This document shows positions 6,875 to 38,229 of a DNA stretch of 47,043 nt, in pieces. Made by a program: the position numbers and the translations under genes. This stretch comes from Flavobacteriaceae bacterium (GTDB lineage Bacteria; Bacteroidota; Bacteroidia; Flavobacteriales; Flavobacteriaceae): positions 72,405-119,447 of the forward strand of contig JANRDC010000006.1 in the NCBI GenBank assembly GCA_030726725.1, in the 5' to 3' direction. The notes under the pieces are model-generated. The model was not told where the DNA came from, made no database searches, and saw only the letters and a program-made list of their open reading frames with translations. The stretch's first letter is position 1. Every line of letters starts with the position of its first letter.

Positions 6875-7454
6875 AAATCTCTGGGTATTTGTAGCGCAAG
6901 TCTTCTAGTTTTGCGGTGATTTCTTTTTCATTTTTTGGATAGAGCAGAATTTGTCTGCTGCCATCAATTTTAATCCAAACTTCTCGGTCGAGTTCTTTGA
7001 GATACACAGATTTGAATTCATTGCCAGGGTACCATTTTACCAAGCTGTCCTTGATTTGTGGGATTAATTTTTCAGCGTATAAATCTGTGTTCCATGGGGC
7101 CCATGCTTCGAAATAAAAGCCCATATCCAGTCCTGTCATCAGTTGTTCTGGGGTGAAAATTCCATAGAATTCATAGACAATGGAGGTTTGCCCTTCTTTT
7201 GTTGTCTCAAAAGTGTGCTGTACGGTTTTGTTGTTGGGCCCTTGGGTTACTTTCCCCATTTTATTCAACTCCCAACAACGGTCAAAAAATTGTTTTCTGT
7301 TTTGGCCCACCTTAAATCCGAAATACAAATCTTCGGTAGGGGTAGGGTTTTTTGCCTCAGATTCGACCATTTGCGTGTAATCAGAACGACAACTGCCCAA
7401 CAATAATGAAACAAATAGACCCAATAGTCCTAATATCCTGATATTTCTGTTCAT
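6867..7454 (-). CDS. Lipoprotein of unknown function between VCBS paralogs
   Basis: A 195-residue protein whose N-terminus (ILGLLGLFVSLLLGSC) is a lipoprotein signal with the acylated Cys at about residue 22. The mature part is hydrophilic and mixed alpha/beta in appearance, with no repeats, no membrane segment and no catalytic motif that I recognise. It begins 4 bases inside the end of the upstream VCBS gene (ATGA) and ends 8 bases inside the start of the downstream one, so it is an integral member of this operon. It could be a periplasmic or outer-membrane partner of the VCBS proteins. That is inferred only from position. Confidence 0.85.
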   Translation of the reverse strand: MNRNIRILGLLGLFVSLLLGSCRSDYTQMVESEAKNPTPTEDLYFGFKVGQNRKQFFDRCWELNKMGKVTQGPNNKTVQHTFETTKEGQTSIVYEFYGIFTPEQLMTGLDMGFYFEAWAPWNTDLYAEKLIPQIKDSLVKWYPGNEFKSVYLKELDREVWIKIDGSRQILLYPKNEKEITAKLEDLRYKYPEIYE

Positions 7455-10400
7455 GGTAAAATGCTTAATTTTTTATTGTTTATGCCAAAAATGATGCGTT
7501 TGCCCGCTTTTGTGTCCAGTGGTGAAATAGCGCGAATATTGCCTTTTATCCCCAGAGGGAGGGGCGTTTGATTGAATAAATAACCTTGTTTTCCCCCGGG
7601 AATAGCCCAGCCACTCGAAGCGTCAGAGGCCCCAAATCTAGGTTTTATCAGGTACTGATTTCCGCCAAAAATCAAATCATCAATCCCGTCTTTATTGTGA
7701 TCAGCTAAAGCAATGGCGTTTATGTGTGCGTACTGCAGCTCACCGGGTAGTTTTATTGGTGTTAATTGATCTCCATCAAAACTCCAGGCAGATGTCGACA
7801 CCGAGTTCAGTCTGTAGTTGGTCGATGATTCCATGGCCTCTTGTCCCAGCAATTTCTCCAAAGTCGCCGTGCTGTAATCCGCGTATAACAATCTGTTTTT
7901 TTTGAGGTAGGGAAGTTGCTGGCTCAGCTCATCTTTATCGTGAATCGGATAATCTTGTTCATCGATCTGATAGGTAAATATTTGCTCAGGACGACCGTTT
8001 TGATCAAAATCTGCCACCCACATACCCATACCTACCTGATAAAAACTGTTGGTGCCTACATTTCCTGCGATGAGGTCCTTTATCCCATCACCATTGAGAT
8101 CAGCCAGGTGTAACGCCCCCCACATACCCCGGGTGTTACCCATTCCGAACTGATCGGTGGCTCGTTCAAATTCACCGGCTCTATTCAGGTAAATCTCCAC
8201 ATTCATCCAGTCTCCAGAGGCGATGATATCAGGCCAGCTATCTGCGTTCAGGTCGGTCACAACGGCACTCCGGACCATACCCATATCTTTAAACGCTTCA
8301 CTGGACGAAAGACTAAATCTGCCCAGCCCATCGTTGATCAATAGATAACCCGAGCTCGGTAATCCATAGGTTTCTGTGTCGTATCTACCGGCAATCCACA
8401 AGTCGGGATCGTTGTCAGCGTCGGCATCGAAGCTGATCACAACACCTGTGTTTAACAAAGGTACTTCCTCGATCGCGAAGGCAAATGCTTTAAAGTTCCC
8501 ACGACCGTCGTTGAGATAAAACAGGTCTTTTAACGCACTGTCAAATTTTGAAAATGCTTTCCCACCTGTTCCTACATAAAGGTCTAAATCCCCGTCTCGA
8601 TCGGTGTCTACAAACAACGCCACTACCTCTTCCGCATTTTGTGCTGCTGCAAAAGGTTCAGTACGAACCGTGTAGGTTCCATCCGGCTTACTCAAAACGA
8701 GTTGTCCGCTTTGCTTCTTTCCCCCTCCTAAATACACATCGTCGTATCCATCCCCATTGACATCTCCTACGGCCAATGCCGGCCCTTGGTGACTCACCAT
8801 CTCCGGAAGCAGCTGTTCAAAATTAAAATCAATATATGGACCTTCTTCATGGGCTATTTCCGGAAAAATTTCCTCTTGAAGCACTTGCAGCGTCTCCGTT
8901 TCTGGAATTGCTTGTGTAGGTACTTGATGCTGATCTATATGCAGTAATTGGTTGGCAGTAATGTCTTTTAGCACACTTTTGGTTCTGTTGGGCCAAATCA
9001 CTTCAATACTGTCCACTTTTTTTGCTGCACCGAGTCCAAAGTGCAGTCGGTTTGGGCTCGCACTCATAAATCCTCTTGAGGGGAATTGTTCTCCCATGGA
9101 TTTATTGCCTCCGTAATATACAATAGCCTTGGTACCCACCCCAAAAGTGTTTTTTCCCAGCGCTTTAAAGCTTAATTGTAGGGCATTGGCCTGCTGATCT
9201 GTATTGTTTTTATAGATAAACGGAGGCATGTTTACATTGTTGACCACCAAATCTAGATCACCATCATTATCCAAATCCCCGTAAGCACTTCCATTGCTGA
9301 AAGAGGGTGTTTGCATACCCCAAGTTTCTCGCATATCCTCAAATTCCCAATCCCCTTTGTTGCGATAAACCGCATTGGGGACTGCTTTTGAGGGCATTAG
9401 GTCAATGAGTTTGGTGATCACCTCATCATCCTCTTGAATCATTTGGCGGACCTTCTCTTCGTTGGCCATATAGGCTAAATAATCGCGATCGAGCAGGTCT
9501 TTGTAAATACCGTTGCTGACATATACATCGCGCAGTCCGTCGTTGTCCATGTCAAACAACAACGCTGCCCAACTCCATTCGGTAGCTGACAAACCAGTCA
9601 TCCTGCTGATTTCGGCAAATCCTTGCTGTCCCAAATTCCGCTGTAAAGCATTTCTGGGATATTGTTTGTGGTATCCCTTACTTCCTGCCAAACTAAATTT
9701 GTCCCAGGATTCATAAGTCTGTTTCGTTTTCTGGCGCTCTAAAGTTTCGGGCAACATTTCTGTCACCATCAGATCAGGCAGTAAATCATTGTCTAAGTCA
9801 GCGGCATCTGCGCCCATGGAGCCCATAGACAACGCAGAGAAATATTGGTCGCTTACCTCTTTGAATCCCCCTTGCCCAGTATTGAGGTAGAGATAGTCCT
9901 TTTCAAAAAAATCATTGGAAATAAATAAATCAGGTCGGTGATCCCCGTTAAAGTCTGAAAGTGTAATCCCCAAACCAAATCCTATAGCAGAGGTGTAAAT
10001 TCCCGTTTCTTCGGACACATTCACAAAAAACCCGTCTCGGTTTTCCAAAAGTCGGTTTCCATCAGGATGACTTTTTTCTCTTTGCCCTTCAATAAGGTCA
10101 TAAGCGCCCACTGAGCGAATAGAGTTATTGAGCAAATAGCAATCCAAATCTCCATCCGCGTCATAATCAAAAAACGCTGCTTGAACAGATAAACCCACTA
10201 CATCTAGCCCATAGGCCGCAGATGATTCTTTAAAGGTTAAATCGCCTTGGTTGATAAACAGTTCATTGTTTCTGTTTTGCCCACCTGGCATCCCGGATTT
10301 AGTCACGTAAAGGTCTAGTAATCCATCTCCATTGATATCTGCCCAGGTAGCTCCAGCAGACCAAACTCCGCTACAGGCTACGCCTGCCCGATCAGTGATG

Positions 10401-10720
10401 TCCTCAAATTCCCAATTTCCTTTGTTGAGATACAGTTTGTTTTCGGTCATATTACCTGTAAAATACAGGTCGATCAACCCATCGTTGTTGATGTCTCCTA
10501 GGGCAACCCCAGCCCCGTTATAAAAATTGCGGTAGGTATACGGGTTAAACTCTTCTGTATAGCTCAATTGATTTTCAAACTCAATACCCAAATCTTTAGG
10601 ATCCATCTGGGTAAAGCGCGTGTCCTTTTCGGCGCAACCCACCAATAAAATCACCCAGGCAATAGTCGTGAACCAGGGCCCATACAAATATGTTAAACTT
10701 CTAGATTTAGTGGAATACAT
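7451..10720 (-). CDS. FG-GAP/VCBS repeat lipoprotein with ASPIC/UnbV domain (paralog 3)
   Basis: A 1,089-residue secreted lipoprotein and the first of the three VCBS genes to be transcribed. A long N-region precedes the hydrophobic segment WFTTIAWVILLVGC, with the lipobox Cys at about residue 29. FG-GAP motifs (DINNDGLID, DINGDGLLD, DYDADGDLD) come first, then an ASPIC/UnbV-like segment near residues 520-595 (SRGFMSASPNRLHFGLGAA, then VIWPNRT), then a second FG-GAP set (DVNGDGYDD, DTDRDGDLD, DLNADSWPD). It lies 143 bases after susD and behind a terminator, so its expression may be lower than, or independent of, SusC/SusD. It overlaps the next gene by 4 bases (ATGA). The function is unknown; surface ligand binding or complex assembly are possibilities. 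Confidence 0.94.
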   Translation of the reverse strand: MYSTKSRSLTYLYGPWFTTIAWVILLVGCAEKDTRFTQMDPKDLGIEFENQLSYTEEFNPYTYRNFYNGAGVALGDINNDGLIDLYFTGNMTENKLYLNKGNWEFEDITDRAGVACSGVWSAGATWADINGDGLLDLYVTKSGMPGGQNRNNELFINQGDLTFKESSAAYGLDVVGLSVQAAFFDYDADGDLDCYLLNNSIRSVGAYDLIEGQREKSHPDGNRLLENRDGFFVNVSEETGIYTSAIGFGLGITLSDFNGDHRPDLFISNDFFEKDYLYLNTGQGGFKEVSDQYFSALSMGSMGADAADLDNDLLPDLMVTEMLPETLERQKTKQTYESWDKFSLAGSKGYHKQYPRNALQRNLGQQGFAEISRMTGLSATEWSWAALLFDMDNDGLRDVYVSNGIYKDLLDRDYLAYMANEEKVRQMIQEDDEVITKLIDLMPSKAVPNAVYRNKGDWEFEDMRETWGMQTPSFSNGSAYGDLDNDGDLDLVVNNVNMPPFIYKNNTDQQANALQLSFKALGKNTFGVGTKAIVYYGGNKSMGEQFPSRGFMSASPNRLHFGLGAAKKVDSIEVIWPNRTKSVLKDITANQLLHIDQHQVPTQAIPETETLQVLQEEIFPEIAHEEGPYIDFNFEQLLPEMVSHQGPALAVGDVNGDGYDDVYLGGGKKQSGQLVLSKPDGTYTVRTEPFAAAQNAEEVVALFVDTDRDGDLDLYVGTGGKAFSKFDSALKDLFYLNDGRGNFKAFAFAIEEVPLLNTGVVISFDADADNDPDLWIAGRYDTETYGLPSSGYLLINDGLGRFSLSSSEAFKDMGMVRSAVVTDLNADSWPDIIASGDWMNVEIYLNRAGEFERATDQFGMGNTRGMWGALHLADLNGDGIKDLIAGNVGTNSFYQVGMGMWVADFDQNGRPEQIFTYQIDEQDYPIHDKDELSQQLPYLKKNRLLYADYSTATLEKLLGQEAMESSTNYRLNSVSTSAWSFDGDQLTPIKLPGELQYAHINAIALADHNKDGIDDLIFGGNQYLIKPRFGASDASSGWAIPGGKQGYLFNQTPLPLGIKGNIRAISPLDTKAGKRIIFGINNKKLSILP

Positions 10721-27579: not shown

Positions 27580-28875
27580 CTAGTTGTTGGACCAGTCGCT
27601 CGCCCGTTGCATTTTGGCCTTAATTTGTTCAAAACCCGGAGCGCCTATACTGCCGATATGCGTGTGATTAATGTCCCTTTTAGGAAGGTAGGTGCCCTGT
27701 GCAATCTCGGCACCCAAGCTTTTATAGGCATCTCTAAAGGGCATACCTTGAAGCACCTTTTCGTTTAGGGCATCTACGCTGAATAGATAATCGTATTTGG
27801 ATTGATCGGTGATGCCTGGGTTAACGATGATGTCTTTGAGTCCAAAACGCATCATGTCCAAGCAGGATTTGAGGTTGGCGATGGCTGGAAAGAGCACTTC
27901 TTTAAGCAATTGGTATTCCCTGTGGTAACCGCTTGGCAGGTTGTTGGTCAACAGGGTTAAGGTGTTGGGGAGTGCTTGAAGCAAGGCGGATTTGCCGCGA
28001 ATCAATTCAAATACATCGGGATTTTTTTTGTGGGGCATGATGCTCGATCCAGTGGTGAGCTGGTCTGGAAAACTGATAAATCCAAAATCTTGACCCATGT
28101 ATAAACAGATATCCATCGCCAAACGGCCCAAAGTGCCTCCGAGTGAGGCCAAGGCATAGCCCACCGCTTTTTCTGTTTTTCCACGGCCCATTTGCGCAGC
28201 GACGACATTGTATTTCAGTGTTGAAAAGCCCAGTTGACGGGTTGTCATTTCCCGGTCAATGGGGAAAGAGGATCCGTATCCTGCGGCAGAACCTAAAGGA
28301 TTTTGGTCCGTGGTCTTGTAGGCGGCATGTGCGAGATATAGATCATCGATCAGCCCCTCTGCGTAGGCCGAAAACCAAAGCCCAAAGGAAGAAGGCATCG
28401 CGACTTGAAGGTGGGTATACCCCGGCATCAGGGTGTTTTTGTGTCTTTCTGCCAGGTCCATCAACAGCTCGAATAAGGCTGATGTTTCCGCCTTAATCGC
28501 CTCGAGTTCCGCTTTCAGATACAACTGACAAGCCACCAATACTTGGTCATTTCTAGACCTGGCAGCGTGAATTTTTTTACCGGTCTCTCCCAATTCCTGG
28601 GTCAGTAGGTATTCAATTTTGGAGTGCACATCTTCAAATGAATCCTCAATGACGAACTCACCGGCCTCTATAGCCTCGCCTATGTGCGTTAATGAGGTAA
28701 TCAGCGCTTGGCTTTCCTCATGCGTGATCAATCCGACATGGGCCAGCATAGCGGCATGAGCCTGGGATGCTTGAACATCGTAGGGCGCAATCAACAGGTC
28801 GAGTGTTCTGTCCATCCCCACGGTGAACTGATCTATTTTTTGGTCTGTAGGTTGTCCTTTATCCCAGAGTTTCAT
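27580..28875 (-). CDS. argH: Argininosuccinate lyase
   Basis: A 431-residue cytoplasmic lyase of the fumarase/aspartase superfamily that splits argininosuccinate to arginine and fumarate, the last step of arginine synthesis. The signature GSSIMPHKKNPD lies near residues 279-290 and contains the mobile-loop catalytic Ser. HSKIEYLLTQELGETGKKIHAARSRNDQV near residues 104-132 and TPGYTHLQ-like PGYTHLQVAMPSSFG are also typical. The start overlaps the end of argE by 17 bases. It is the last gene of the arginine operon. Confidence 0.96.
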   Translation of the reverse strand: MKLWDKGQPTDQKIDQFTVGMDRTLDLLIAPYDVQASQAHAAMLAHVGLITHEESQALITSLTHIGEAIEAGEFVIEDSFEDVHSKIEYLLTQELGETGKKIHAARSRNDQVLVACQLYLKAELEAIKAETSALFELLMDLAERHKNTLMPGYTHLQVAMPSSFGLWFSAYAEGLIDDLYLAHAAYKTTDQNPLGSAAGYGSSFPIDREMTTRQLGFSTLKYNVVAAQMGRGKTEKAVGYALASLGGTLGRLAMDICLYMGQDFGFISFPDQLTTGSSIMPHKKNPDVFELIRGKSALLQALPNTLTLLTNNLPSGYHREYQLLKEVLFPAIANLKSCLDMMRFGLKDIIVNPGITDQSKYDYLFSVDALNEKVLQGMPFRDAYKSLGAEIAQGTYLPKRDINHTHIGSIGAPGFEQIKAKMQRASDWSNN

Positions 28876-29962
28876 GGTCTTGCGGTTTTAAAAAGGGGTT
28901 CAGTAATCGAAAATAAATTTCAGGAGCTTCCAGCAACTCATCCAGATAGATAAACTCATCAGCGCTGTGGCTTCGCGTGCTGTCACCAGGCCCCATTTTT
29001 AGGGAGGGACAACTCAATACCGATTGGTCGGATAAGGTGGGGCTTCCATAGGTGGTGCGCCCCAGAGCAAGCCCTGATAGCACCAGGGGATGCTGCGGAT
29101 CAATGCCTGATGAATTGAGCCTTAGTGATCTAGGCGTAAGTGTACAAGGTGCATCTGCTTGCAGTTGCCCAGCAATTTCAGCATTGGTATAGCACTCATT
29201 GACACGCACGTCAACCACCAGGTGAAGTTGGGCGGGTACTGCATTGTGTTGCACTCCTGCTTGAATTTGGGTAACGGTTATTTTAACGGGTCCCAATTGG
29301 GGAGATACTCGTTCAAAACGATAGTTTTTGAACCATTCTAGCACGGGAATTGCTCGATAAATGGGGTTGTCCTCATTGGGGTGTGCTGCGTGCGAAGCTG
29401 TTCCTTCGACGACACCATCAAAGACGACCAAGCCTTTTTCTGCAATGGCTAGCTGCATTTGCGTGGGTTCGCCCACAATGGCTACATCGATATGTGGGAG
29501 GGTGTCGAGTAGACCCACCAGTCCATTGGGGCCAGAATTTTCTTCTTCAGCCGTGGCAGCCAACACCAAATTATGGGTCAAATCGACCTCGTGATAAAAC
29601 GCCATAAATACAGCCATCAAGCTCACCAGCGCACCACCGGCATCATTGCTCCCCAAACCGTACAATCGGCCCTCTACCAGATCAGCCTGATACGGATCAC
29701 GGGTGTAGCCTTGGTTGGGCTGTACTGTGTCGTGGTGTGAGTTGAGCAACAAAGTGGGTTTAGCAGGGTCAAAATGCAGGTTGGTCGCCCAGATGTTGTT
29801 GCCTTGACGGTTGGTCGTCACCCCTCTTGCAGTCAACCATTGGTGAATCAGTTCAGCAGTTCCTTGCTCTTCACCTGAAAAAGAACGCGTCGCAATCAGC
29901 TGTTTCAGCAGCTCAATGGCCTCAAGGGTGTATTGTTTGATCAATTCTTTGTTTTTATCCAT
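28859..29962 (-). CDS. argE: M20-family deacylase of the arginine pathway (ArgE type)
   Basis: A 367-residue M20 zinc amidohydrolase. The ATG at 29962, 2 bases after the argB stop (TAATCATG), gives MDKNKELIKQYTLEAIELLK; the longer frame runs back into argB. Metal-binding motifs are LLNSHHDTVQP, GSNDAGGALVS and the catalytic ATAEEENSGPNG. In a pathway that uses an ArgF'-type carbamoyltransferase, the enzyme is expected to remove the acyl group from N-acylcitrulline, not from N-acylornithine. This is inferred from context; sequence alone does not separate the two or exclude other M20 substrates. Confidence 0.88.
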   Translation of the reverse strand: MDKNKELIKQYTLEAIELLKQLIATRSFSGEEQGTAELIHQWLTARGVTTNRQGNNIWATNLHFDPAKPTLLLNSHHDTVQPNQGYTRDPYQADLVEGRLYGLGSNDAGGALVSLMAVFMAFYHEVDLTHNLVLAATAEEENSGPNGLVGLLDTLPHIDVAIVGEPTQMQLAIAEKGLVVFDGVVEGTASHAAHPNEDNPIYRAIPVLEWFKNYRFERVSPQLGPVKITVTQIQAGVQHNAVPAQLHLVVDVRVNECYTNAEIAGQLQADAPCTLTPRSLRLNSSGIDPQHPLVLSGLALGRTTYGSPTLSDQSVLSCPSLKMGPGDSTRSHSADEFIYLDELLEAPEIYFRLLNPFLKPQDHETLG

Positions 29963-29964
29963 GA

Positions 29965-30747
29965 TTAGTGGATGATGGTTGTTCTGGGTTGTTCTGGTTT
30001 TTGTAACATAGACTCCGATCCAATTTCGATGTGGCCTACACCGAGTTTGAGCGCGGTAAAACAATTGTTCAGTTTAGGGAGCATACCTTGGTGAATCACC
30101 CCTTGATCGACCAGTTCTTCGAACCTTTGTCGGTTCAATTCGGTCAACAGGGAATGCGGATCGTTTAAATCTAAAAGGACGCCTTGTTTTTCAAAGCAGT
30201 AAGTCAGCCGAACATCGCATTGCTCTGTGAGTGCAGCCGCGATAGCTGCGGCTATCGTATCCGCATTAGTGTTGAGTAATTGTCCTTTTTTGTCGTGGGT
30301 AATGGCGCAGAACACCGGGATAAATCCCGCTTCCATCAATCGGTTAATGCTCAGGGCATCCACCTGATGGATATCGCCTACAAAGCCATAATCCACTGGT
30401 GATGGAGTTCGTTTTCGCGCTTCAATCACATTGCCATCTGCACCGGACAGCCCCAGGGCATTGACGCCATAAGACTGCAGCAGACTTACGATGCTTTTGT
30501 TGGTCCATCCCGCATACATCATGGTCACCGCTTTAAGGCTTTCTGAAGAGGTGACCCGACGACCATCAATCATGGTCGTTGGAATACCCAGTTGAGCTTC
30601 CAAGACAGAGGCGTCTCTTCCACCTCCGTGTACCAAGATTTTTGAGCCTTTAAGGGCAGCAAAATCTTGGAGCAGTGCTTCCAGACGGGCGGTGTCTTCC
30701 AGGATGCCGCCCCCGATTTTCACGATGTGGACCTGTGGTTTAGACAT
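29965..30747 (-). CDS. argB: Acetylglutamate kinase
   Basis: A 260-residue amino acid kinase for the second step of arginine synthesis, phosphorylating N-acylglutamate. Motifs are KIGGGILED at the N-terminus, KILVHGGGRDAS near residues 36-47, GLSGADGN near 98-105 and NTNADTIAAAIAAAL near 160-174. The protein begins directly with the first beta strand and lacks the extra N-terminal helix found in arginine-inhibited hexameric forms, so allosteric control by arginine is doubtful. It lies 2 bases after argF' and 2 bases before argE. Confidence 0.95.
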   Translation of the reverse strand: MSKPQVHIVKIGGGILEDTARLEALLQDFAALKGSKILVHGGGRDASVLEAQLGIPTTMIDGRRVTSSESLKAVTMMYAGWTNKSIVSLLQSYGVNALGLSGADGNVIEARKRTPSPVDYGFVGDIHQVDALSINRLMEAGFIPVFCAITHDKKGQLLNTNADTIAAAIAAALTEQCDVRLTYCFEKQGVLLDLNDPHSLLTELNRQRFEELVDQGVIHQGMLPKLNNCFTALKLGVGHIEIGSESMLQKPEQPRTTIIH

Positions 30748-30749
30748 GG

Positions 30750-31685
30750 TTAGGCGTTGAGTATTTGGTGGAGTACATACAGGGCGGAGTAGGTGCGGTT
30801 GTTGGCTTGATGGAGCACCAGTGATTGAGCAGAATCCAGCACGTCGTCAGCGACTACTACATTGCGGCGCACAGGCAAGCAGTGCATCATTTGGGCTGAG
30901 CCCAATTTATCCAAATTCACCATCCAATTCGGGTCTGTGTTGTGTACAGTTCCGTATGGGTCAGAAGCGCTCCAATTTTTCACATAGACAAAGTCCGCAT
31001 CTTCCAGGGCTTCCTCTTGGTTGTGGTAAATGGGGATTCCTCGGGTGAGCTCAGGGTTTAGTTCGTACCCTTTTGGGTGGGCGATGGCTGTAGGGCCGCC
31101 CATCAACTGCATCATTTCAACAAACGAGTTGGGAACGGCATGTGGGAGTGCTCTGGGGTGGGGCGCCCAAGTCAGCACAATTTTGGGTTGAGCGGTTTTT
31201 TTGTGTTCTTCTATCGTCATCGCATCGGCCAATGCCTGAAGGGGATGACCTGTGGCACTTTCCATATTGATAACCGGTACCCCGGCGTATTTTACAAATC
31301 CGTTGAGCACTATATCCGCTTGGTCTTCCGCTTGATTTTTAAGCTCTGCAAACGAGCGCACGGCAATCACATCGCAATACTGGGACAATACAGCAGCAGC
31401 TTCTTTGATATGTTCCGCTTTGCCGCCATCCATCACGACCCCATCTCCGAATTCCAATTGCCATCCCTCGCTGCCAAAGTTCATGACCACCACCTCCATA
31501 CCCAAGAGACGTCCCGCTTTTTGGGTGCTCAACCTGGTGCGCAGTGAAGGGTTGAAAAACAACATCCCCAAGGTTTTGCCCTGTCCCAAAGTCGCTGCTT
31601 TGCGGTGATCTTTTTTTAAGGCCAATGCACCCTTTAGGTGATCCCCAAAGGGGTTGAGATCCGATAATGCGGTGAAATTTTTCAT
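30750..31685 (-). CDS. argF': N-acylornithine carbamoyltransferase (ArgF' type)
   Basis: A 311-residue carbamoyltransferase. The carbamoyl-phosphate site reads FFNPSLRTRLSTQKA near residues 43-57, in place of the STRTR of ordinary ornithine transcarbamylase, which marks the acetyl/succinylornithine type. Other motifs are WAPHPRALPHAVPNSF and MHCLPVRRNVVVADDV. In this family, residue 90 (Pro in the Bacteroides succinylornithine enzyme) and the matching Glu92 of the Xanthomonas acetylornithine enzyme set the acyl preference, as I recall. Here the sequence GGKAEH puts Ala at residue 90, so the preferred acyl group is unclear. It overlaps argD by 4 bases. Confidence 0.93.
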   Translation of the reverse strand: MKNFTALSDLNPFGDHLKGALALKKDHRKAATLGQGKTLGMLFFNPSLRTRLSTQKAGRLLGMEVVVMNFGSEGWQLEFGDGVVMDGGKAEHIKEAAAVLSQYCDVIAVRSFAELKNQAEDQADIVLNGFVKYAGVPVINMESATGHPLQALADAMTIEEHKKTAQPKIVLTWAPHPRALPHAVPNSFVEMMQLMGGPTAIAHPKGYELNPELTRGIPIYHNQEEALEDADFVYVKNWSASDPYGTVHNTDPNWMVNLDKLGSAQMMHCLPVRRNVVVADDVLDSAQSLVLHQANNRTYSALYVLHQILNA

Positions 31686-32809
31686 GCGAGTGCTTGAATT
31701 AATGCGTCAAAGAACTGGTCGATGTGTTCTTTTTTAATGTTTAGCGCTGGTAAAATACGCAATACCTTCGGATCGCTGGCTGATCCGGTAAAGATGTGGT
31801 GTTCGTGGATCAGGCGATTGCGCAGCGGAGCTACCGGTGCCTCAAAGGCCAATCCCAGCATCAATCCACGGCCCTTTACTTGAAGGACTTGGGGAATTTG
31901 GGCTGCTTTGGCCTTGAAATAGGGCTCCATAGCCGCGGCATTGCGCATCAGATCCTCAGATTCTATGACTTCTAAAACTGCAAGTGCTGCTGCGCAGGCC
32001 AGGTGATTGCCGCCAAAGGTGGTCCCCAACATTCCGTAGCTCGCCTGGATGTGGGGGGCGATTAATATACCCCCAATCGGAAATCCATTGCCCATGCCTT
32101 TGGCTACGGAGACGATGTCTGGGCTAATCCCCGCGTGTTGGAAGGCAAAAAATCGGCCAGAACGGCCGTAACCTGACTGAACCTCGTCTGCGATCATCAT
32201 CGCTCCATGTGCTTTACAGGCGGCTGAAATCTGTTGCAAAAACTCAGCGGAAGGCATATCCAATCCACCCACACCTTGGATGGGTTCTACAATCACCGCA
32301 GCGATTTTTCCGGTGGCCAATAATTCCTCAAGTCGCTGATGATCCCCAAAATCAACAAAATGCACCTGGTGCTGTGCGTTGAGGGGCGCAACAATTTTTG
32401 GGTTGTCGGTCACAGCTACCACAGCAGAAGTACGTCCGTGAAAGCTGTGTGTAAAGGCGATCACTTCAGCTTTTCCTGTGGCCATGGAGGCTACTTTGAG
32501 GGCGTTTTCGTTGGCCTCTGCGCCTGAGTTGCACAAAAACAGCTGGTAGTCCTCCAATCCGGAGAGCGCGCCCAGTTTTTGCGCGAGTTCCTGTTGTAAG
32601 GGGTTTTGCACCGCATTGCTGTAAAAGGCCATACGGTCGAGTTGTTCCTTGATTCGGGAAACGTAATGCGGGTGGGTATGCCCGATGGAAATTACTGCGT
32701 GGCCTCCATATAGGTCTAGGTATGGAATGCCGTCACCGTCCCAAACCACAGATCCCTCTGCCTTTACGGGTGTGATGTCGTATAATGGATAAACGTCAAA
32801 TGGCTTCAT
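31682..32809 (-). CDS. argD: Acylornithine aminotransferase
   Basis: A 375-residue class III PLP aminotransferase that makes N-acylornithine from the semialdehyde using glutamate. Family motifs are NSGAEANENALK near residues 94-105, HSFHGRT near 121-127, DEVQSGYGRSGRF near 208-220, and VAKGMGNGFPIGG with the PLP-binding Lys at residue 237. It starts in a 4-base overlap with proC and ends in a 4-base overlap with argF'. The length is normal. It may also act in lysine synthesis as succinyldiaminopimelate aminotransferase, which sequence cannot exclude. Confidence 0.95.
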   Translation of the reverse strand: MKPFDVYPLYDITPVKAEGSVVWDGDGIPYLDLYGGHAVISIGHTHPHYVSRIKEQLDRMAFYSNAVQNPLQQELAQKLGALSGLEDYQLFLCNSGAEANENALKVASMATGKAEVIAFTHSFHGRTSAVVAVTDNPKIVAPLNAQHQVHFVDFGDHQRLEELLATGKIAAVIVEPIQGVGGLDMPSAEFLQQISAACKAHGAMMIADEVQSGYGRSGRFFAFQHAGISPDIVSVAKGMGNGFPIGGILIAPHIQASYGMLGTTFGGNHLACAAALAVLEVIESEDLMRNAAAMEPYFKAKAAQIPQVLQVKGRGLMLGLAFEAPVAPLRNRLIHEHHIFTGSASDPKVLRILPALNIKKEHIDQFFDALIQALA

Positions 32810-33606
32810 AATTGTTCTCGGGTAATATTGCTTATTTTTTCAAACGAGCGTTGCATGCCTTGTATCAAAGCAGAACTCATGCCCTGGTGTTCCATCTCGT
32901 TGAGTCCTGCGATGGTACACCCTTTTGGGGTGGTCACTTTGTCAATTTCCGCTTCTGGGTGGGAGTTGGATTTGACCAAAAGATCAGCCGCTCCGCGACA
33001 GGTATAAACGGCGAGCTCTTGGGCTTCGCGGGCTTCAAACCCCAACTGAATGGCGGATTGGGTGGTGGCTCTGATCAGGCGCATCCAAAAAGCAATGCCG
33101 CTGGCACAAACCACGGTGGCTGCCTGCATCAATTCCTCGTGAATGACCATTGAATGTCCCATGCGCTCAAAAATGGCTTGAGCCAGCGCCACTCTTTTTT
33201 CTCCTTTTGGATTGCTGCAGATACAGGTCATCGAACTGCCCACGGATAGAGCGGTATTGGGCATGGCCCGGATCAAGTATCGATCAGGCCCCACTATTTC
33301 CTCGATAAATGCGATGCTGCAACCGGCAGCTGTGGAAATGACCACATGCCGTTCTTCTAAGAGATCGTTGACTTCAGTCAGGATGGTTTTGAGTTGGCTG
33401 GGTTGTACGGCAAAGATCAGGATATCCGATTGTTGAACGGCCAATCGATTATCGGTCGTTATGGTCACATTCCCGTAGGATTCAAATTCTTGGATACTGG
33501 CGGTATGTCTTTTGGTCAGCACCATGGAGGTAGCTCCGTTGGTGTTGAGGATGCCGCGCGCGAGCGCTTTTCCCAGATTTCCCGTTCCGATGATGGCGAT
33601 TTTCAT
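32806..33606 (-). CDS. proC: Pyrroline-5-carboxylate reductase
   Basis: A 266-residue NAD(P)H-dependent enzyme that completes proline synthesis. The ATG at 33606, 5 bases after the argC stop, gives MKIAIIGTGNLGKALARGIL with the nucleotide-binding GxGxxG; the longer frame enters argC. Other motifs are AVQPSQL, ISTAAGCSI, RAMPNTALSVGSSMT near residues 108-122 and the C-terminal GCTIAGLNEMEHQGMSSALIQ-like substrate site (residues ~228-248, key G, T, E, M). Its place inside the arginine operon ties proline to arginine synthesis, with glutamate semialdehyde chemistry in common. Confidence 0.94.
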   Translation of the reverse strand: MKIAIIGTGNLGKALARGILNTNGATSMVLTKRHTASIQEFESYGNVTITTDNRLAVQQSDILIFAVQPSQLKTILTEVNDLLEERHVVISTAAGCSIAFIEEIVGPDRYLIRAMPNTALSVGSSMTCICSNPKGEKRVALAQAIFERMGHSMVIHEELMQAATVVCASGIAFWMRLIRATTQSAIQLGFEAREAQELAVYTCRGAADLLVKSNSHPEAEIDKVTTPKGCTIAGLNEMEHQGMSSALIQGMQRSFEKISNITREQL

Positions 33607-33611
33607 AAGCG

Positions 33612-34586
33612 TTAAAATGCGGAGGGTTTGAGTAACAACCCTAGGTTTTCTTCCCATCCAAAGATGAGGTTCATGTTTTGTACGGCTTGGCCTGAGGCCC
33701 CTTTAAGCAGGTTGTCAATCGCTGAGGTGATCAGCAGCTGGTCTTCAAAAAGGTGTAGGTGTATCTGGCAGAAGTTCGTGTTTACTACTGCTTTTAAGTG
33801 AATCGGATCCTCTGATCGGTGCGTAAACGGCGCATCGGCATAGAAATCGTCAAATAGTTGCTTGGCTTGGTTCAGCGTCCCGGAATAGGACGTATAAGCA
33901 GTGGCCCAAATCCCGCGGGCAAAATTTCCTCTTTGGGGTAAAAAGTAGAGCTTGGGATTGGTTTTTTGAAGCCCCCCTAATTGCTCGCCGATTTCCCCTA
34001 AGTGTTGGTGTTCAAAGGCTTTATACCAAGACATCGAATTGTTGCGCCAGCTAAAATGCGTAGATTCCGACAGGGCAGCACCTGCACCGGTGCTTCCGGT
34101 GGTTGCGTTGATATGAACAGGTTCTTTCAGGTATCCATGAGCAGCGAGTGGAGCTAGGGCCAATTGGATGGCGGTAGCAAAACAGCCGGGATTGGCCACG
34201 GCATCAGCCCCCTCTATCGCTTTCTTTTGGGTTTCGCAAAGTCCGTAGACAAAGTTTCTTCCGGCAAATGAGGCGTCTTTTTGGGCCCTAAAGTCCGTGC
34301 TTAGGTCGATGATTTTCGTGTGAGCGCTAAAGGGATGTTCGGTTAAAAAAGCCGCTGAAGCCCCGTGGCCCAAACACAAAAAGACCACATCCACTTCGGG
34401 GTTGACTCGGTCCGTTAGGGTCATATCCACTAGGCCTAACAAATCAGGATGGGCACTGTGGACCGGGCGACCCGCTCTGGTGGTGGAATACAAAAAATCA
34501 ATGGTGACGGCTGGGTGCTGGCTGAGGATGCGCACGAGCTCCCCACCGGTATATCCCGTAGCGCCGATGATACCTGCTTTAATCAT
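33612..34586 (-). CDS. argC: N-acetyl-gamma-glutamyl-phosphate reductase
   Basis: A 324-residue NADPH-dependent reductase for the third step of arginine synthesis. It opens with the Rossmann motif GIIGATGYTGGELVRILSQHP. The catalytic Cys lies in VANPGCFATAIQLAL near residues 130-144, and HINATTGSTGAGAALSES follows. The start overlaps argG by 8 bases (ATGATTAA), consistent with coupled translation. Confidence 0.95.
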   Translation of the reverse strand: MIKAGIIGATGYTGGELVRILSQHPAVTIDFLYSTTRAGRPVHSAHPDLLGLVDMTLTDRVNPEVDVVFLCLGHGASAAFLTEHPFSAHTKIIDLSTDFRAQKDASFAGRNFVYGLCETQKKAIEGADAVANPGCFATAIQLALAPLAAHGYLKEPVHINATTGSTGAGAALSESTHFSWRNNSMSWYKAFEHQHLGEIGEQLGGLQKTNPKLYFLPQRGNFARGIWATAYTSYSGTLNQAKQLFDDFYADAPFTHRSEDPIHLKAVVNTNFCQIHLHLFEDQLLITSAIDNLLKGASGQAVQNMNLIFGWEENLGLLLKPSAF

Positions 34587-35766
34587 GGTACGGATGTATC
34601 GAGTTGTAAATCATTCCGGCATTGGCGCTCATGGCGATAAAACCTTTGGCGTCTTCAGCCGTCCATGCCTTGTTTTCTTCCCCATAAGAACCGAAGGAAG
34701 AACGCATGAGGTCGTTGGGAGAATCAACCCCATCCAAGGTAAATCGGTAGGGGTGTAGGGTGACGATGACCGTGCCTTCCACCGCTTTTTGACTATCGAT
34801 TAGAAAAGCCTCCAGGTTGCGCATCACAGGATCCAGGTATTGGCCTTCGTGCAGCAGCATGCCATAAAAATTCCCGATTTGCTCTTTTTGGAATTGTTGC
34901 CACTTGCTGAGGGTGTGTTTTTCGAGTAGGTGGTGGGCTTTGATGGTCAACAAGGCAGCAGCTGCCTCAAATCCAACACGGCCTTTGATGCCGATGATCG
35001 TATCCCCCACATGGATGTCGCGACCGATTCCATAAGGACCTGCAATGCGCTCCAAGTCTTGAATGAGGACTTGTGGGGCGTCCACACGTCCATCTATAGA
35101 AACTAATTCCCCGGCTTTAAAGCCCAGGCGCAATGTGCGCGGGGTATTTTCGGTCTGTTGGGTTGGGTAAGCGTGTTCGGGCAGGGGTCGATCTGAGGTT
35201 AAGGTTTCTACCCCGCCTACTGAGGTGCCCCAAAGCCCTTTATTGATCGAGTATTTGGCTTTTTCCCATTGCCCTTCAACCCCTTGAGCTTGTAAATAAG
35301 CGATTTCAGTTTCCCGACTTAAAGCTTCATCCCTGATGGGGGTGATCAACTTCATATCCGGGGCGATGATGCGGAAAATCAAATCAAATCGGACCTGGTC
35401 ATTCCCCGCCCCGGTAGATCCATGGGCGATGTGGGTGGCGCCTATTTTTTGGGCGTACTGTACAATTTCTAGGGCTTGAACCACGCGTTCAGCGCTGACC
35501 GATAATGGGTAGGTATTGTTTTTAAGCACATTGCCGAAAATCAAGTAACGCACTACTTTGGTGTAAAAGCGGCGCACCGAGTCGATGGCGGTGTAACTAT
35601 GCACCCCCATAGCCAGCGCTTTGCGTTCGATCTCAGCGATTTCTTCTGGGGCAAATCCCCCCGTATTCACCGTCACCGCATGGACTTCATATCCAGCGAG
35701 CGAAAGGCTTTTGGCGCAATAAGAGGTGTCGAGGCCTCCGGAATAGGCGAGTACTAGTTTTTTCAT
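34579..35766 (-). CDS. argG: Argininosuccinate synthase
   Basis: A 395-residue ATP-dependent ligase joining citrulline and aspartate. The N-terminal PP-loop is LAYSGGLDTSYCAKSL near residues 5-20. AHGSTGAGNDQVRFDL near 114-129 and the TPIRDE segment are typical of the citrulline/aspartate site. It overlaps the upstream GNAT gene by 4 bases (ATGA) and argC by 8. The length matches the bacterial family. Confidence 0.95.
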   Translation of the reverse strand: MKKLVLAYSGGLDTSYCAKSLSLAGYEVHAVTVNTGGFAPEEIAEIERKALAMGVHSYTAIDSVRRFYTKVVRYLIFGNVLKNNTYPLSVSAERVVQALEIVQYAQKIGATHIAHGSTGAGNDQVRFDLIFRIIAPDMKLITPIRDEALSRETEIAYLQAQGVEGQWEKAKYSINKGLWGTSVGGVETLTSDRPLPEHAYPTQQTENTPRTLRLGFKAGELVSIDGRVDAPQVLIQDLERIAGPYGIGRDIHVGDTIIGIKGRVGFEAAAALLTIKAHHLLEKHTLSKWQQFQKEQIGNFYGMLLHEGQYLDPVMRNLEAFLIDSQKAVEGTVIVTLHPYRFTLDGVDSPNDLMRSSFGSYGEENKAWTAEDAKGFIAMSANAGMIYNSIHPYHD

Positions 35767-36383
35767 TTTTTTTGGGCTTTTAGCAATAGTTTTTCCTTGA
35801 TTTGTTTCAGGCGTTGAAATGCTTTGGGATTAAAAATCCGCTCCTTAAGTCCCGGCTTTTTCACCTGAGGATCATAGAGCATTCCGGTACACAGACACAT
35901 TTTGCGTTCTGTACGGGTCAGGATGTCAAAGTTCTTACATGTTTTGCAACCATTCCAAAATTCTGGATCATCGGTCAATTCTGAAAAGGTCACAGGCTTG
36001 TACCCCAAAGCGTAGTTGATTTTCATCACAGCCAGGCCGGTGGTGATACCAAAGAGTTTAGCTTCGGGAAATTTCTTTCTGGATAGGTCAAAAGCGGCCT
36101 GCTTAATTCTTTTGGCCAGACCAGTACCTCTGAAGTCTGGGTGGACGATAAGGCCTGAATTGGCCACAAATTTTTCGTGACCCCATACTTCGATATAACA
36201 GAACCCAGCAAAATCTTCACCGCGCAAAGCGATGATCGCATTCCCGTTTTCCATTTTCTTTTGGATGTATTCCGGGGTGCGTTTGGCGATACCTGTTCCT
36301 CTGATTTTGGCAGATTCTTCAATGGTGTCGCAGATGATGGGTGCGTATTTAAAATGGGTGCGATCAGCAACGAGGATGCGCAT
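35763..36383 (-). CDS. GNAT acetyltransferase, probable N-acetylglutamate synthase
   Basis: A 206-residue GNAT-family acetyltransferase and the first structural gene of the arginine operon. The acetyl-CoA-binding region is NSGLIVHPDFRGTGLAKRI near residues 75-93 (Rx2GxG/A type). No ArgA or ArgJ is otherwise visible in this nine-gene operon, so this protein most likely makes N-acylglutamate, the first step. That is an inference from position and completeness of the pathway. Unusual for a GNAT, a tail holds four Cys (C146, C149, C163, C165, in GCKTCK and MCLC) that could bind zinc, followed by a Lys-rich end. It overlaps argG by 4 bases. Confidence 0.85.
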   Translation of the reverse strand: MRILVADRTHFKYAPIICDTIEESAKIRGTGIAKRTPEYIQKKMENGNAIIALRGEDFAGFCYIEVWGHEKFVANSGLIVHPDFRGTGLAKRIKQAAFDLSRKKFPEAKLFGITTGLAVMKINYALGYKPVTFSELTDDPEFWNGCKTCKNFDILTRTERKMCLCTGMLYDPQVKKPGLKERIFNPKAFQRLKQIKEKLLLKAQKK

Positions 36384-36461
36384 AGCACAACGTGGTGTTT
36401 AGTGAAATAAGTGAAAAAAGGATTTTGTTTTCGAGGGGGAATTGGACACACCTAATTCCAT

Positions 36462-36486
36462 AAAAAGACACACCCTTACGGGCGTG
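36462..36486 (-). terminator. Intrinsic terminator in the arginine operon leader (candidate attenuator)
   Basis: On the minus strand CACGCCC pairs with GGGTGTG (one G-U wobble) around a GTAA tetraloop (arms 36480-36486 and 36469-36475), followed by TCTTTTT. It lies between the putative operon promoter and the GNAT start, 79 bases upstream of the latter. Its loop contains the stop codon of the leader ORF. A termination site in front of the operon, with no upstream gene to end, is best explained as attenuation. Confidence 0.7.
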
Positions 36487-36556
36487 GAAACCTTGGGGTT
36501 GTCCTATAAGAAAAGGACCCCTGAGCTAATGACGATAAAAGTGCTTGGACTTTCAT
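36476..36556 (-). CDS. Candidate arginine-operon leader peptide
   Basis: A 26-codon ORF with ATG at 36556 and TAA at 36478-36476. It ends in YRTTPRFPRP, so Arg codons stand at positions 18 (AGG), 22 (AGG) and 25 (CGC). The Arg-25 codon lies within the 5' arm of the terminator stem and the stop codon lies in its loop. A hairpin at about 36496-36521 (GTCCT pairing with AGGAC, plus three G-C pairs) overlaps Arg-18 and could make RNA polymerase pause. The ATG lies 5 bases after a perfect -7 element, so the transcript may be leaderless or nearly so. Ribosomes stalled for Arg-tRNA at codons 22 or 25 would cover the stem and allow read-through. No translation evidence is available. Confidence 0.5.
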   Translation of the reverse strand: MKVQALLSSLAQGSFSYRTTPRFPRP

Positions 36557-36561
36557 GGGCA

Positions 36562-36569
36562 CAAATGTA
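36562..36569 (-). promoter_or_regulatory. Possible -7 promoter element of the arginine operon
   Basis: TACATTTG on the minus strand matches TAnnTTTG exactly and is 5 bases upstream of the leader-peptide ATG. The start of transcription would be expected near that ATG. A -33 TTG at standard spacing was not found. Confidence 0.45.
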
Positions 36570-36614
36570 ACAAAATATCCAGGCGGTGTCCTGCTAGTTC
36601 AAGGATTTAACAAA

Positions 36615-36622
36615 AAGCGCTT
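36615..36622. promoter_or_regulatory. Second AAGCGCTT operator-like core, upstream of GH32
   Basis: AAGCGCTT repeats the core of the palindrome in front of the LacI-family gene (AAnCGnTT type) in a non-coding region, 71 bases upstream of the GH32 start. Flanking symmetry is weak, so it may be chance. Confidence 0.3.
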
Positions 36623-36693
36623 CAGCTGTCATAAATCGCCAAGTGACTCCACCCAGTGTAAAAAATACTATTTTAGCGCAAAATGATTGAATT

Positions 36694-38229
36694 GTGATCC
36701 GAGTATTCCGCACTGCAGTACTGACTTGCGCCTTATTGGCCGCAGCAGCTTGTCAAAATAAAAAAGAAGCAACACCCCCCGAAGAACCTACTGCTTACCA
36801 TGAGGCCTATCGCCCACAACTGCATTTCTCCCCAGAGGCGCATTGGATGAATGACCCCAATGGTTTGGTCTATCACCAGGGCGTGTATCATTTATTCTAC
36901 CAATACTATCCCGAGGATATCGTTTGGGGTCCCATGCATTGGGGACACGCCACCTCGACTGATTTGGTTTCTTGGACACACCAACCCGTCGCCTTGTTTC
37001 CCGACGAACACGGCTATATCTTTTCCGGTTCTGCGGTGGTGGATACCCAAAACACCAGTGGCTTAGGCACTTTGGAAAACCCACCCATGGTGGCGTTGTA
37101 TACCTACCACAAGGCGGAACGCGAAAAGGAAGGGTTTAATGATTTTCAAACTCAGGGATTGGCCTACAGCTTGGACAACGGGCAGACTTGGACCAAGTAC
37201 GACCGGAATCCGGTGATTAAGAACCCAAACAGCATTCGCGATTTTAGAGACCCCAAGGTGTTTTGGAACGACTTGACGCAAGCTTGGACCATGCTATTGG
37301 TCGCTGGAGATCACGTGCAGATTTGGGGTTCAAAGAATTTGATCGACTGGGCTCAGCAAAGCACTTTTGGCCATGAACTAGGGGCCCATGGAGGTGTTTG
37401 GGAATGCCCTGACTTGTTTGCTTTACCTGTCGAGGGTACGGACCAGGTCCGTTGGGTCATGTTGGTCAGTATCAATCCAGGCGCGCCCAACGGAGGAAGT
37501 GGCACCCAGTATTTTGTGGGTGACTTTGACGGAACCAAGTTTACCACCGATCAAAAAGATCCTCTGTGGATCGATGGAGGCACAGACAACTACGCTGGGG
37601 TGACGTACAACCATACCCCTGATGGATCCAGACAGTTTATCGGCTGGATGAGCAATTGGGCCTATGGTCAGGAAACACCCACCAAGGAGTGGCGTTCTTC
37701 GATGACTTTGGCGAGAACCTTGAGTTTGAGGGCTACACCACAAGGCCCTAGGTTGCGCACCAAGCCTTTGCCTGCGCTGGCATCATACAGTCAGGGTGCG
37801 GCTGAAGCAGTTGCCGTGGATCAACCTTGGACCCAACCCAGTCAAGGGCATTTGCAGGGCCAAGTGTCTGGGGATCAAGTCTTGACTTTGTCCAATGCCT
37901 CTGGTCAATCTGTAGTATTCACCTTTGAGGCTACAAAAAACAGAATCACGGTGGATCGATCCGCTTCTGGGGATGTTTCGTTTAGCGAAGCGTTTGCCGC
38001 AGCGCCTATGCAGATGGATTGGGATAACCCAGCTGACAACACGCCGGTCTCTTTTTATTTAGACGCGTCCTCCATCGAACTCTTTGTCGGTGACGGGGAC
38101 CAGGTGATGACCCTACAGGTATTTCCCACCACGCCCTGGGACCGCATCTCGGTGGCCCCATCTCCAGGTTCAACCACTGATACTCCATGGAGCTGGCAAC
38201 CGATGCGCTCCATTTGGGAAAAGCACTAA
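36694..38229 (+). CDS. GH32 fructan hydrolase lipoprotein (levanase/fructanase/inulinase type)
   Basis: A 511-residue secreted glycoside hydrolase. The GTG start gives MIRVFRTAVLTCALLAAAAC, a lipoprotein signal with Cys at residue 20; an ATG slightly upstream reads into a stop and is not usable. The three GH32 catalytic motifs are intact: WMNDPNG with nucleophile Asp54, FRDPKV with transition-state Asp186 and ECPDLF with acid/base Glu237. A C-terminal beta-sandwich (from about residue 370) completes the family fold. It should hydrolyse beta-fructosides such as levan, inulin or sucrose outside the cytoplasm. No fructokinase or fructan SusCD is present here, so it stands alone. A strong terminator follows 4 bases after the stop. 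Confidence 0.95.
   Translation: MIRVFRTAVLTCALLAAAACQNKKEATPPEEPTAYHEAYRPQLHFSPEAHWMNDPNGLVYHQGVYHLFYQYYPEDIVWGPMHWGHATSTDLVSWTHQPVALFPDEHGYIFSGSAVVDTQNTSGLGTLENPPMVALYTYHKAEREKEGFNDFQTQGLAYSLDNGQTWTKYDRNPVIKNPNSIRDFRDPKVFWNDLTQAWTMLLVAGDHVQIWGSKNLIDWAQQSTFGHELGAHGGVWECPDLFALPVEGTDQVRWVMLVSINPGAPNGGSGTQYFVGDFDGTKFTTDQKDPLWIDGGTDNYAGVTYNHTPDGSRQFIGWMSNWAYGQETPTKEWRSSMTLARTLSLRATPQGPRLRTKPLPALASYSQGAAEAVAVDQPWTQPSQGHLQGQVSGDQVLTLSNASGQSVVFTFEATKNRITVDRSASGDVSFSEAFAAAPMQMDWDNPADNTPVSFYLDASSIELFVGDGDQVMTLQVFPTTPWDRISVAPSPGSTTDTPWSWQPMRSIWEKH

Follow-up and report, generated by a model that had tools for sequence, protein, structure and literature searches.

A conserved arginine-codon leader element before the arginine operon of Flavobacteriaceae is probably a ribosome-mediated attenuator

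Results

The arginine operon and its leader in the window

The DNA analysed here, called the window below, is a stretch of 47,043 nt from a Flavobacteriaceae bacterium (GCA_030726725.1, contig JANRDC010000006.1, positions 72,405-119,447, forward strand). An arginine operon lies on its minus strand, as do all the leader parts described below. The first gene of the operon encodes a GNAT-family acetyltransferase (35763-36383; Pfam PF00583), for which an NCBIfam search gave no match. Protein-family searches identified the remainder (27580-35766, minus strand) as argG, argC, proC, argD, a carbamoyltransferase gene (argF'), argB, an M20 deacylase gene (argE-like) and argH. Elsewhere in the window, at 361-10720 on the minus strand, are three neighbouring ORFs of 1091, 1091 and 1089 amino acids, perhaps encoding related proteins.

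Upstream of the GNAT gene is a -7 promoter box, TACATTTG (36562-36569), followed 5 nt on by the ATG (36556) of a leader ORF of 26 codons, MKVQALLSSLAQGSFSYRTTPRFPRP (36476-36556), which ends in a TAA stop at 36478-36476. A TTG is found 30 nt upstream of the box; the usual spacing between the two is shorter than this. Arg occurs just three times in the ORF, at codons 18, 22 and 25, twice as AGG and once as CGC. Inside it, before the last Arg codons, a candidate pause hairpin was recognized by eye and is called hp0 here, GGGGTCC...GGACAACCCC (36495-36521). The next hairpin, hp1, CACGCCC-GTAA-GGGTGTG (36469-36486), was identified by a terminator scan, alignment and covariation; the last Arg codon, CGC, lies within its 5' arm, the TAA lies in its loop, and TCTTTTTAT follows. 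It is the sole terminator-like site in 36300-36720, where shuffled sequences average 0.3. A U-rich tract (36461-36468), defined by spacer composition, separates hp1 from hp2, GGAATTAGGTGTGTCCAATTCC (36438-36459), which alignment and covariation show as GGAATT-A-GG-UGUGU-CC-AATTCC with a pentaloop conserved as UGNGU. A preliminary description of this DNA had named the -7 box, the ORF 5 bases on with its 26 codons, the three Arg codons among its last nine, the last Arg codon in the stem and the stop in the loop of hp1, a hairpin ahead of hp1 and the second hairpin at 36438-36459, and a check of the sequence found each of them in place, the hairpin ahead of hp1 by eye at 36521-36495.

The case from the single sequence is modest. 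The 186-nt leader folds with a z score of -1.48 relative to shuffles, with 17 of 200 shuffles as good. The window has three -7 boxes with a following ATG-started ORF of 12-60 codons, and another of them (13888, plus strand) precedes an ORF with, again, three Arg among the last nine codons. The element is judged real on comparison with relatives and not on window statistics alone.

The ArgB and ArgR results bear on how such an operon could be controlled. In ArgB kinases with a long N-terminal extension, this extension senses arginine. The ArgB of the window is 260 aa long, and its alignments to solved kinases begin at query residue 7-8; this start pairs with chain residue 24 in 2bty, 30 in 2buf and 39 in 2rd5, but with residue 6 in 1gs5. 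By these alignments it has no long N-terminal extension, as had been suspected. ArgR (PF01316) was found in 0 of 31 relatives, while the control search was positive in 9 of 14 genomes, with a Bacteroides species among the positives; this does not fit an ArgR-controlled operon. The lack of ArgR in the 31 relatives, together with an ArgB without the extension, makes operon-level control by a leader element plausible.

Distribution of the element in relatives

Within the genus, a protein search with GNAT gave matches in 9 of 12 genomes, the window's own included. One of the loci recovered (L008, in genome G001) has a GNAT match with an internal TAA in a 64% complete genome, which may be a sequencing error or decay. 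In other genomes, 80 loci were taken as the best 80 of 327 confirmed, mostly from Maribacter, Arenibacter, Zobellia, Salinimicrobium, Sinomicrobium and their kin. The hp2 core, AGGTGNGTCC, precedes the GNAT gene in 81 of 82 upstream regions (the window, the 80 loci and L005), the exception being L060. The window and the 32 of the 80 loci that were kept at less than 88% identity, 33 sequences in all, served to build a covariance model, R1.

The model was then run on a family sample of 120 Flavobacteriaceae genomes, one per genus. It matched 71 of the 120 at E<1e-5, one match each, and no genome of the 120 had a second strong match. The weak second matches in G086 (C10), G063 (C16), G089 and G104, and the only, weak match in G062, lie inside longer opposite-strand ORFs and look like chance. 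The GNAT gene is present in 75 of the genomes, 70 of which also have the R1 match, just upstream of the gene. R1 occurs without GNAT in G095 only, where the element is followed by a different small gene and, after that, argG. GNAT occurs without an R1 match in G044, G076, G080, G092 and G121; four of these show a degenerate element by eye, and G080 shows none. Another small gene heads the arginine operon in G095 (locus L176) and G028 (locus L222) with the leader element kept, decayed by eye in G028; the small gene of L222 has a sub-cutoff GNAT match and that of L176 has no Pfam match.

Neither GNAT nor R1 turned up in 44 genomes, and 15 of these were searched for argG. Thirteen had none, G028 had a good match, and G071 had a 68-residue match at 6.9e-4. 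The 13 genomes without a match are probably arginine auxotrophs or carry an unrecognised gene.

Wider searches used stricter filters, with which weak matches are lost. In 296 genomes of the phylum, R1 was found in 16 at E<=0.01: 13 at E<1e-6, all in Flavobacteriaceae, and three at 0.005-0.009 outside the family. In 148 genomes of the order, it was found in 11 at E<=0.001, all in Flavobacteriaceae. No convincing element was seen outside Flavobacteriaceae among these 296 and 148 genomes. The R1-negative family genomes among those listed (17 in the phylum search and 10 in the order search) all belong to the large genus g121, probably Flavobacterium. Five loci of g121 (L216-L219 and L221) have, by eye, a different arginine leader upstream of GNAT: its short peptide, of the type MNKISLHITSLSRTNSPITSPEVRTLSL, uses two CGG codons, and small hairpins surround the stop codon. 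Further down, these loci have a hairpin of the type TTTGTCC/GGACAAA which differs between genomes and stays paired.

The leader reading frame

Conservation of the frame was measured over the 12 codons before the hp1 Arg codon in 70 of the 75 GNAT loci of the family sample, five without an hp1 anchor being omitted. Arg accounts for 213 of 840 codons in the leader frame, and for 34 and 28 in the other two frames; stops number 0 in the leader frame and 22 and 37 in the others. This excess of Arg and absence of stops suggest that the ORF is translated. Apart from the Arg positions, the leader peptides vary. The last leader Arg codons keep mostly their first two bases and have C or T, rarely A, in the third position. 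Over the 15 codons before hp1, the leaders use 230 CGN and 18 AGR codons, while the GNAT genes at the same loci use 223 CGN and 362 AGR; these counts come from 76 of the 80 loci, which are mutually related, so they give no fair P value. The window and its twin in G007 (L002, the same as L010) are atypical within the genus in that two AGG and one CGC replace the CGN run.

The box TAnnTTT[GA] stands 4-8 nt before the start of the Arg-rich leader in 46 of 75 loci, and at five other distance ranges in 12, 3, 2, 2 and 4 of them. From this position, the leader mRNA probably has its 5' end at the first leader codon or only a few bases away.

Two layouts are seen. By script criteria, 48 of the 75 loci have one Arg leader, as do the window and its near relatives, 25 have two in tandem, and two (G063 and G080) have none. 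In the tandem loci the first Arg-rich ORF comes right behind a -7-like box and often ends in RNRRR-stop, and the second ends in hp1. In L151, L154, L159, L162, L178 and others the first leader starts 4-6 nt behind the box. The first leader has no obvious hairpin, and a T-rich stretch which is similar between genera precedes the second. The ORF picker ranks candidates by score, and at times it returns a start further upstream or, of two leaders, the first. In L020, L048 and L071 the scan for Arg-rich ORFs came up empty, and in L038, L041 and L052 it gave other candidates only, though the CGN run is present.

The hairpins hp0 and hp1 and the U-rich tract

In 24 hand-picked loci of the second layout, a covarying 7-bp hairpin was found at the place matching hp0. 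In 24 single-leader loci RNAalifold gave no hp0, and by eye it is there in a shifted register. A shuffle scan of the hp0 region, whose segment cut off the window's own hp0, put 24 of 70 loci above their own 95th shuffle percentile, where about 3 would be expected, and 5 of 65 in a control region.

Of 67 aligned loci, 57 have an in-frame stop in the columns of the hp1 loop and ten do not. The GNRA fold was dropped as the reason for the GUAA loop, because the loop is also UUAA, CUAG and others, and the in-frame stop is what persists. In the fixed columns of the main alignment (A2, described below), hp1 pairs in every one of the 52 rows that have the common arms and in 2 of the 15 variant rows, which by eye can be read in other registers; hp1 also occurs, for example, as CGCAC/GUGCG or with three-base loops. 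The automatic hp1 picker misplaced hp1 in a few loci (e.g. G020, G036, G040, G045, G075 and G130), which affects A2 by row choice only.

The preliminary description took hp1 for a terminator. This fits the window best, where hp1 has -11.8 kcal/mol and is the strongest of 67 rows, and fits most relatives less well, as the median over these rows is -7.9 kcal/mol. The 11-13 nt spacer between hp1 and hp2 is 59% T and 22% A, compared with 37% T and 41% A in a control stretch (67 loci), and five T in the eight bases directly after hp1 are seen in 42 of 67 loci and 18 in the control. In a scan of the last 150 nt for T-tailed hairpins, with crude labels, 68 of 75 loci had any such hairpin, and the best one was hp1 in 10, hp2 in 8 and another hairpin in 50.

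The hairpin hp2

By alignment, hp2 is the best conserved piece of the element. A search of the 300 nt preceding the gene found its core, GGTGNG[TC]CC, in 67 of 75 loci, and in 59 of 67 aligned loci the core lies 57-74 nt before the gene. In A2, where the core was part of the row choice, the loop is UGNGU in 65 of 67 rows, UGCGC in one and UGUGC in one, and the closing GG/CC is replaced by GA/UC in two rows. Two pairs of the arms are G-U in 25 and 22 of the 67 rows. A DNA operator was rejected, since covarying arms with so many G-U pairs point to RNA. Readings of the stretch after hp2 as boxA-like and of GGUGNG as an elemental pause were also dropped, as no consistent match was found by eye. 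The window had no match at gathering score to any family of Rfam 15, which includes Flavo-1, Bacteroid-trp, riboswitches, T-box and other leaders, and seven relatives searched at E up to 1 gave only one U6 match, at E 0.71, outside the element.

Covariation and alternative pairings

The main alignment, A2, has 67 rows selected by the hp2 core plus a flank-pairing score and drops 8 of the 75 loci (G017, G025, G044, G076, G080, G081, G092 and G121). In it 91.8% of cells pair, and covariation over hp1 and hp2 is 0.251, as opposed to 0.148 when shuffled, with 0 of 500 shuffles as high; double changes occur in 7 of 8 hp2 pairs and 1 of 5 hp1 pairs, in rows whose selection favours hp2. In a smaller alignment, A1, whose rows were selected by the hp2 core alone, covariation is 0.195 versus 0.104 shuffled, again with 0 of 500 as high, and double changes occur in 3 of 12 pairs (a count reached by 104 of 500 shuffles), including 2 of 8 in hp2. 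With no selection by pairing, the hp2 flanks score at least 4 in 65 of 67 loci, as against 44% when the 3' flanks are swapped between loci. Both hairpins covary, and the last two comparisons agree with A2.

A fixed-place scan for helices of at least 4 pairs used ungapped flanks and covered 60 of the 67 rows, as 7 were not rejoined to theirs; it is blind to shifting helices, hp0 included. It returned hp1, hp2 and three alternative pairings of the hp1 arms, or of the preceding Arg codon, with the hp2 core. The preliminary description had offered a GGTG block of hp1, repeated in hp2, as an alternative pairing partner. The letters for it are conserved in most relatives: the hp1 5' arm fits GGUG of hp2 in 51 of 52 typical and 12 of 15 variant rows, and the preceding Arg codon fits it in 45 of 52 typical and 13 of 15 variant rows. 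For the hp1 3' arm the corresponding partner is GUCC; in fixed columns these two pair in 52 of 52 typical rows but in only 1 of 15 variant rows, and several loci with an altered hp1 no longer have this pairing. Several variant rows can, by eye, be re-registered for both hp1 and the GUCC pairing, but in L136, L184 and L187 hp1 is retained and the GUCC pairing is not. Compensatory changes that would mark an antiterminator were sought in the alternative pairings of the aligned rows and none was found, so of this proposal the conserved letters stand and the pairing gains no support from covariation.

Discussion

Proposed mechanism

The element is probably, at roughly 0.7, a leader-peptide (ribosome-mediated) attenuator of the arginine operon in a layout typical for Flavobacteriaceae. 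Assignment to the class of Arg-codon leader-peptide attenuators is well supported by the comparative sequence data, through the conserved frame, the Arg codons, the hairpins and the operon context. The short ORF, whose translation is suggested by its frame, is over-represented in codons for the amino acid of the pathway, and the element is placed between the promoter, seen as a consensus box only, and the first gene of the operon. Comparison indicates that the ORF is kept in frame, that its closing CGN Arg codons stand at the base of hp1 and reach into it, that Arg codons and hairpins are selected together, and that the unit belongs to the arginine operon. In the aligned 5' regions of relatives the Arg codons are conserved as well as the hairpin, and the preliminary description's proposal of a ribosome-mediated attenuator survives as to class. 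Its details, with hp1 as a simple terminator, are less secure, because hp1 is weak in most relatives, no antiterminator covaries, and the terminators of the his leaders in 23 sampled genomes are twice as strong.

In the proposed mechanism, hp0 would pause RNA polymerase until the leading ribosome arrives. With ample charged tRNA-Arg the ribosome would reach the stop codon and leave, hp1 would close behind it, and transcription would stop or stay low in the U-rich tract. Scarcity of charged tRNA-Arg for CGN codons would instead hold the ribosome on the Arg codons at the base of hp1; hp1 then could not close, and the polymerase would proceed into the arginine genes. A part in the decision may fall to hp2, for example by pausing the polymerase or binding a factor.

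Two points count against the hp1-terminator model. The first, raised in the preliminary description, is that a ribosome which has reached the stop codon covers hp1 too, and the position of the stop in most aligned loci makes this difficulty general. Only timing, or a distance of 2-3 codons, separates the two states, and since the terminating ribosome covers the same hairpin, discrimination would have to come from dwell time, the U-rich tract or hp2. The second is that the model assigns no definite part to hp2, although hp2 is the best conserved.

Alternative readings

In one alternative reading, translation of the leader is still sensed but hp2 is the output: hp2 with its UGNGU loop would dock a protein or RNA polymerase, and hp1 or the ribosome would only decide whether it is presented. 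We hold this possible and keep it tentative. It draws on the conservation of hp2, with the core in 67 of 75 loci and double changes at 7 of 8 pairs in A2, on its place 11-13 nt after hp1 in the alignment and its retention where the hp1 loop and stop codon differ, and on the G-U pairs in its arms, which point to RNA and not to a DNA operator. On the other side, no factor is known, and the absence of a second strong R1 match in the 120 genomes means that no wider regulon points to one. The fast-changed genomes G044, G092 and G121 keep, by eye, a hairpin with a different loop, so the loop is not indispensable. A related and equally tentative suggestion is that the architecture is new: the decision would be made with the ribosome on or next to a stop codon in a hairpin loop and relayed by a dedicated hairpin, GG-UGNGU-CC, to RNA polymerase or a factor, without a classical terminator/antiterminator pair, and with two Arg leaders in series in a third of the sampled genera.

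Control by Rho or at the level of translation is unlikely. Here the position of the leader ribosome would set Rho access or the start of GNAT translation, with no intrinsic terminator. The stretch from hp2 to GNAT has more C (15.5%) than G (7%) and a rather constant length, as this would have it, but a similar lack of G may be found in other A+T-rich 5' regions of these genomes. Moreover, the U-rich spacer behind hp1 is specific, and it is not obvious how a ribosome stalled upstream could shield the stretch between hp2 and GNAT.

Less probable still is an arrest of the nascent chain of the TnaC or SpeFL type, by which a C-terminus ...RRRP-stop would bind free arginine in the exit tunnel and block release, the arrested ribosome then controlling termination. 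TnaC ends in Arg-Pro, and so do most of these leaders: the aligned rows have a Pro codon in 62 of 67 and the in-frame stop in 57 of 67, so that Arg-Pro-stop is the usual end. However, this end is absent in G013, G042, G072, G111, G122 and G126 and in the Salinimicrobium loci (RTFVRA), where the frame passes through hp1 and the Arg codons and hairpin are retained. An arrest at Arg-Pro-stop was thus rejected as a general mechanism. An arrest peptide would also be conserved in sequence, whereas here only the Arg positions are kept and the C-terminus differs in several genera, and the CGN bias is a feature of codons and not of residues.

Finally, a chance ORF over an ordinary hairpin with no regulation, which the modest statistics of the window alone might have allowed, is refuted by the frame and covariation tests, along with the distribution and codon choice in relatives.

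The leader-peptide attenuator remains the preferred reading. Arginine control in Flavobacteriaceae appears to work without ArgR, found in none of 31 relatives, and with a kinase that has no N-terminal extension, and the leader element is the obvious candidate for the missing control.

Comparison with known systems

A literature search over titles and the starts of abstracts returned no description of an arginine leader in Flavobacteriaceae. The closest background comes from Flavobacterium psychrophilum, for which there are strong clues for leader-peptide attenuation at amino acid operons, and 5' elements without Rfam matches (pheA, hisG and others) are kept in other genera of the family; arginine operons are not among the genes named in the section on 5' elements (PMC9723704). 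The motifs Bacteroid-trp and Flavo-1 are listed in PMC2864571, leader-like short ORFs of B. thetaiotaomicron are mentioned in PMC7366714, and PMC4833913 cites comparative work on attenuation published by Lopatovskaya and colleagues in 2010. The available part of PMC2965389 contains no occurrence of Bacteroid, Flavobacter or arginine.

The cysS leader of Rhodobacterales, uORFC-8-2, likewise has its cognate codons (Cys) in the first of two stems. Its model ends in a U-run terminator, it belongs to another phylum and another amino acid, and the parts of the paper at hand do not describe a UGNGU hairpin (PMC8632094).

With the enterobacterial trp and his attenuators, as far as covered in the part of PMC1183508 consulted, the element shares regulatory codons, a candidate pause hairpin that the ribosome would release and a bias in the synonymous control codons. 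Unlike them, it has no demonstrable II:III antiterminator or III:IV terminator pair, its regulatory codons adjoin the hairpin, and it has two leaders in 25 of 75 loci. The idea of selective charging put forward for attenuators agrees with the CGN bias of the leaders (PMC1183508). The family seems to offer a natural codon-choice experiment for selective tRNA charging, with CGC/CGT here and, by eye, CGG in a related genus.

The most direct comparison is with the his leaders of the same sampled genomes (L227-L250, upstream of hisG). The two kinds of leader share a short ORF with a run of cognate codons before a biosynthetic operon: a His-rich ORF was found in 22 of the 24 loci. By eye, a segment of the his leader, CTCAGGCGAG, could pair with the 5' arm of the terminator. 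Behind the his ORF is a strong intrinsic terminator, found in 23 of 23 loci scanned (L245 omitted) with a median of -16.6 kcal/mol, whereas the arginine element has its stop inside a weak hairpin which is then followed by hp2. As hp1 has a median of -7.9 kcal/mol and is seldom the best T-tailed hairpin, the arginine element differs from the his design in more than its codons. One genome offers a clean comparison between a classical attenuator, that of his, and a differently built one, that of arginine.
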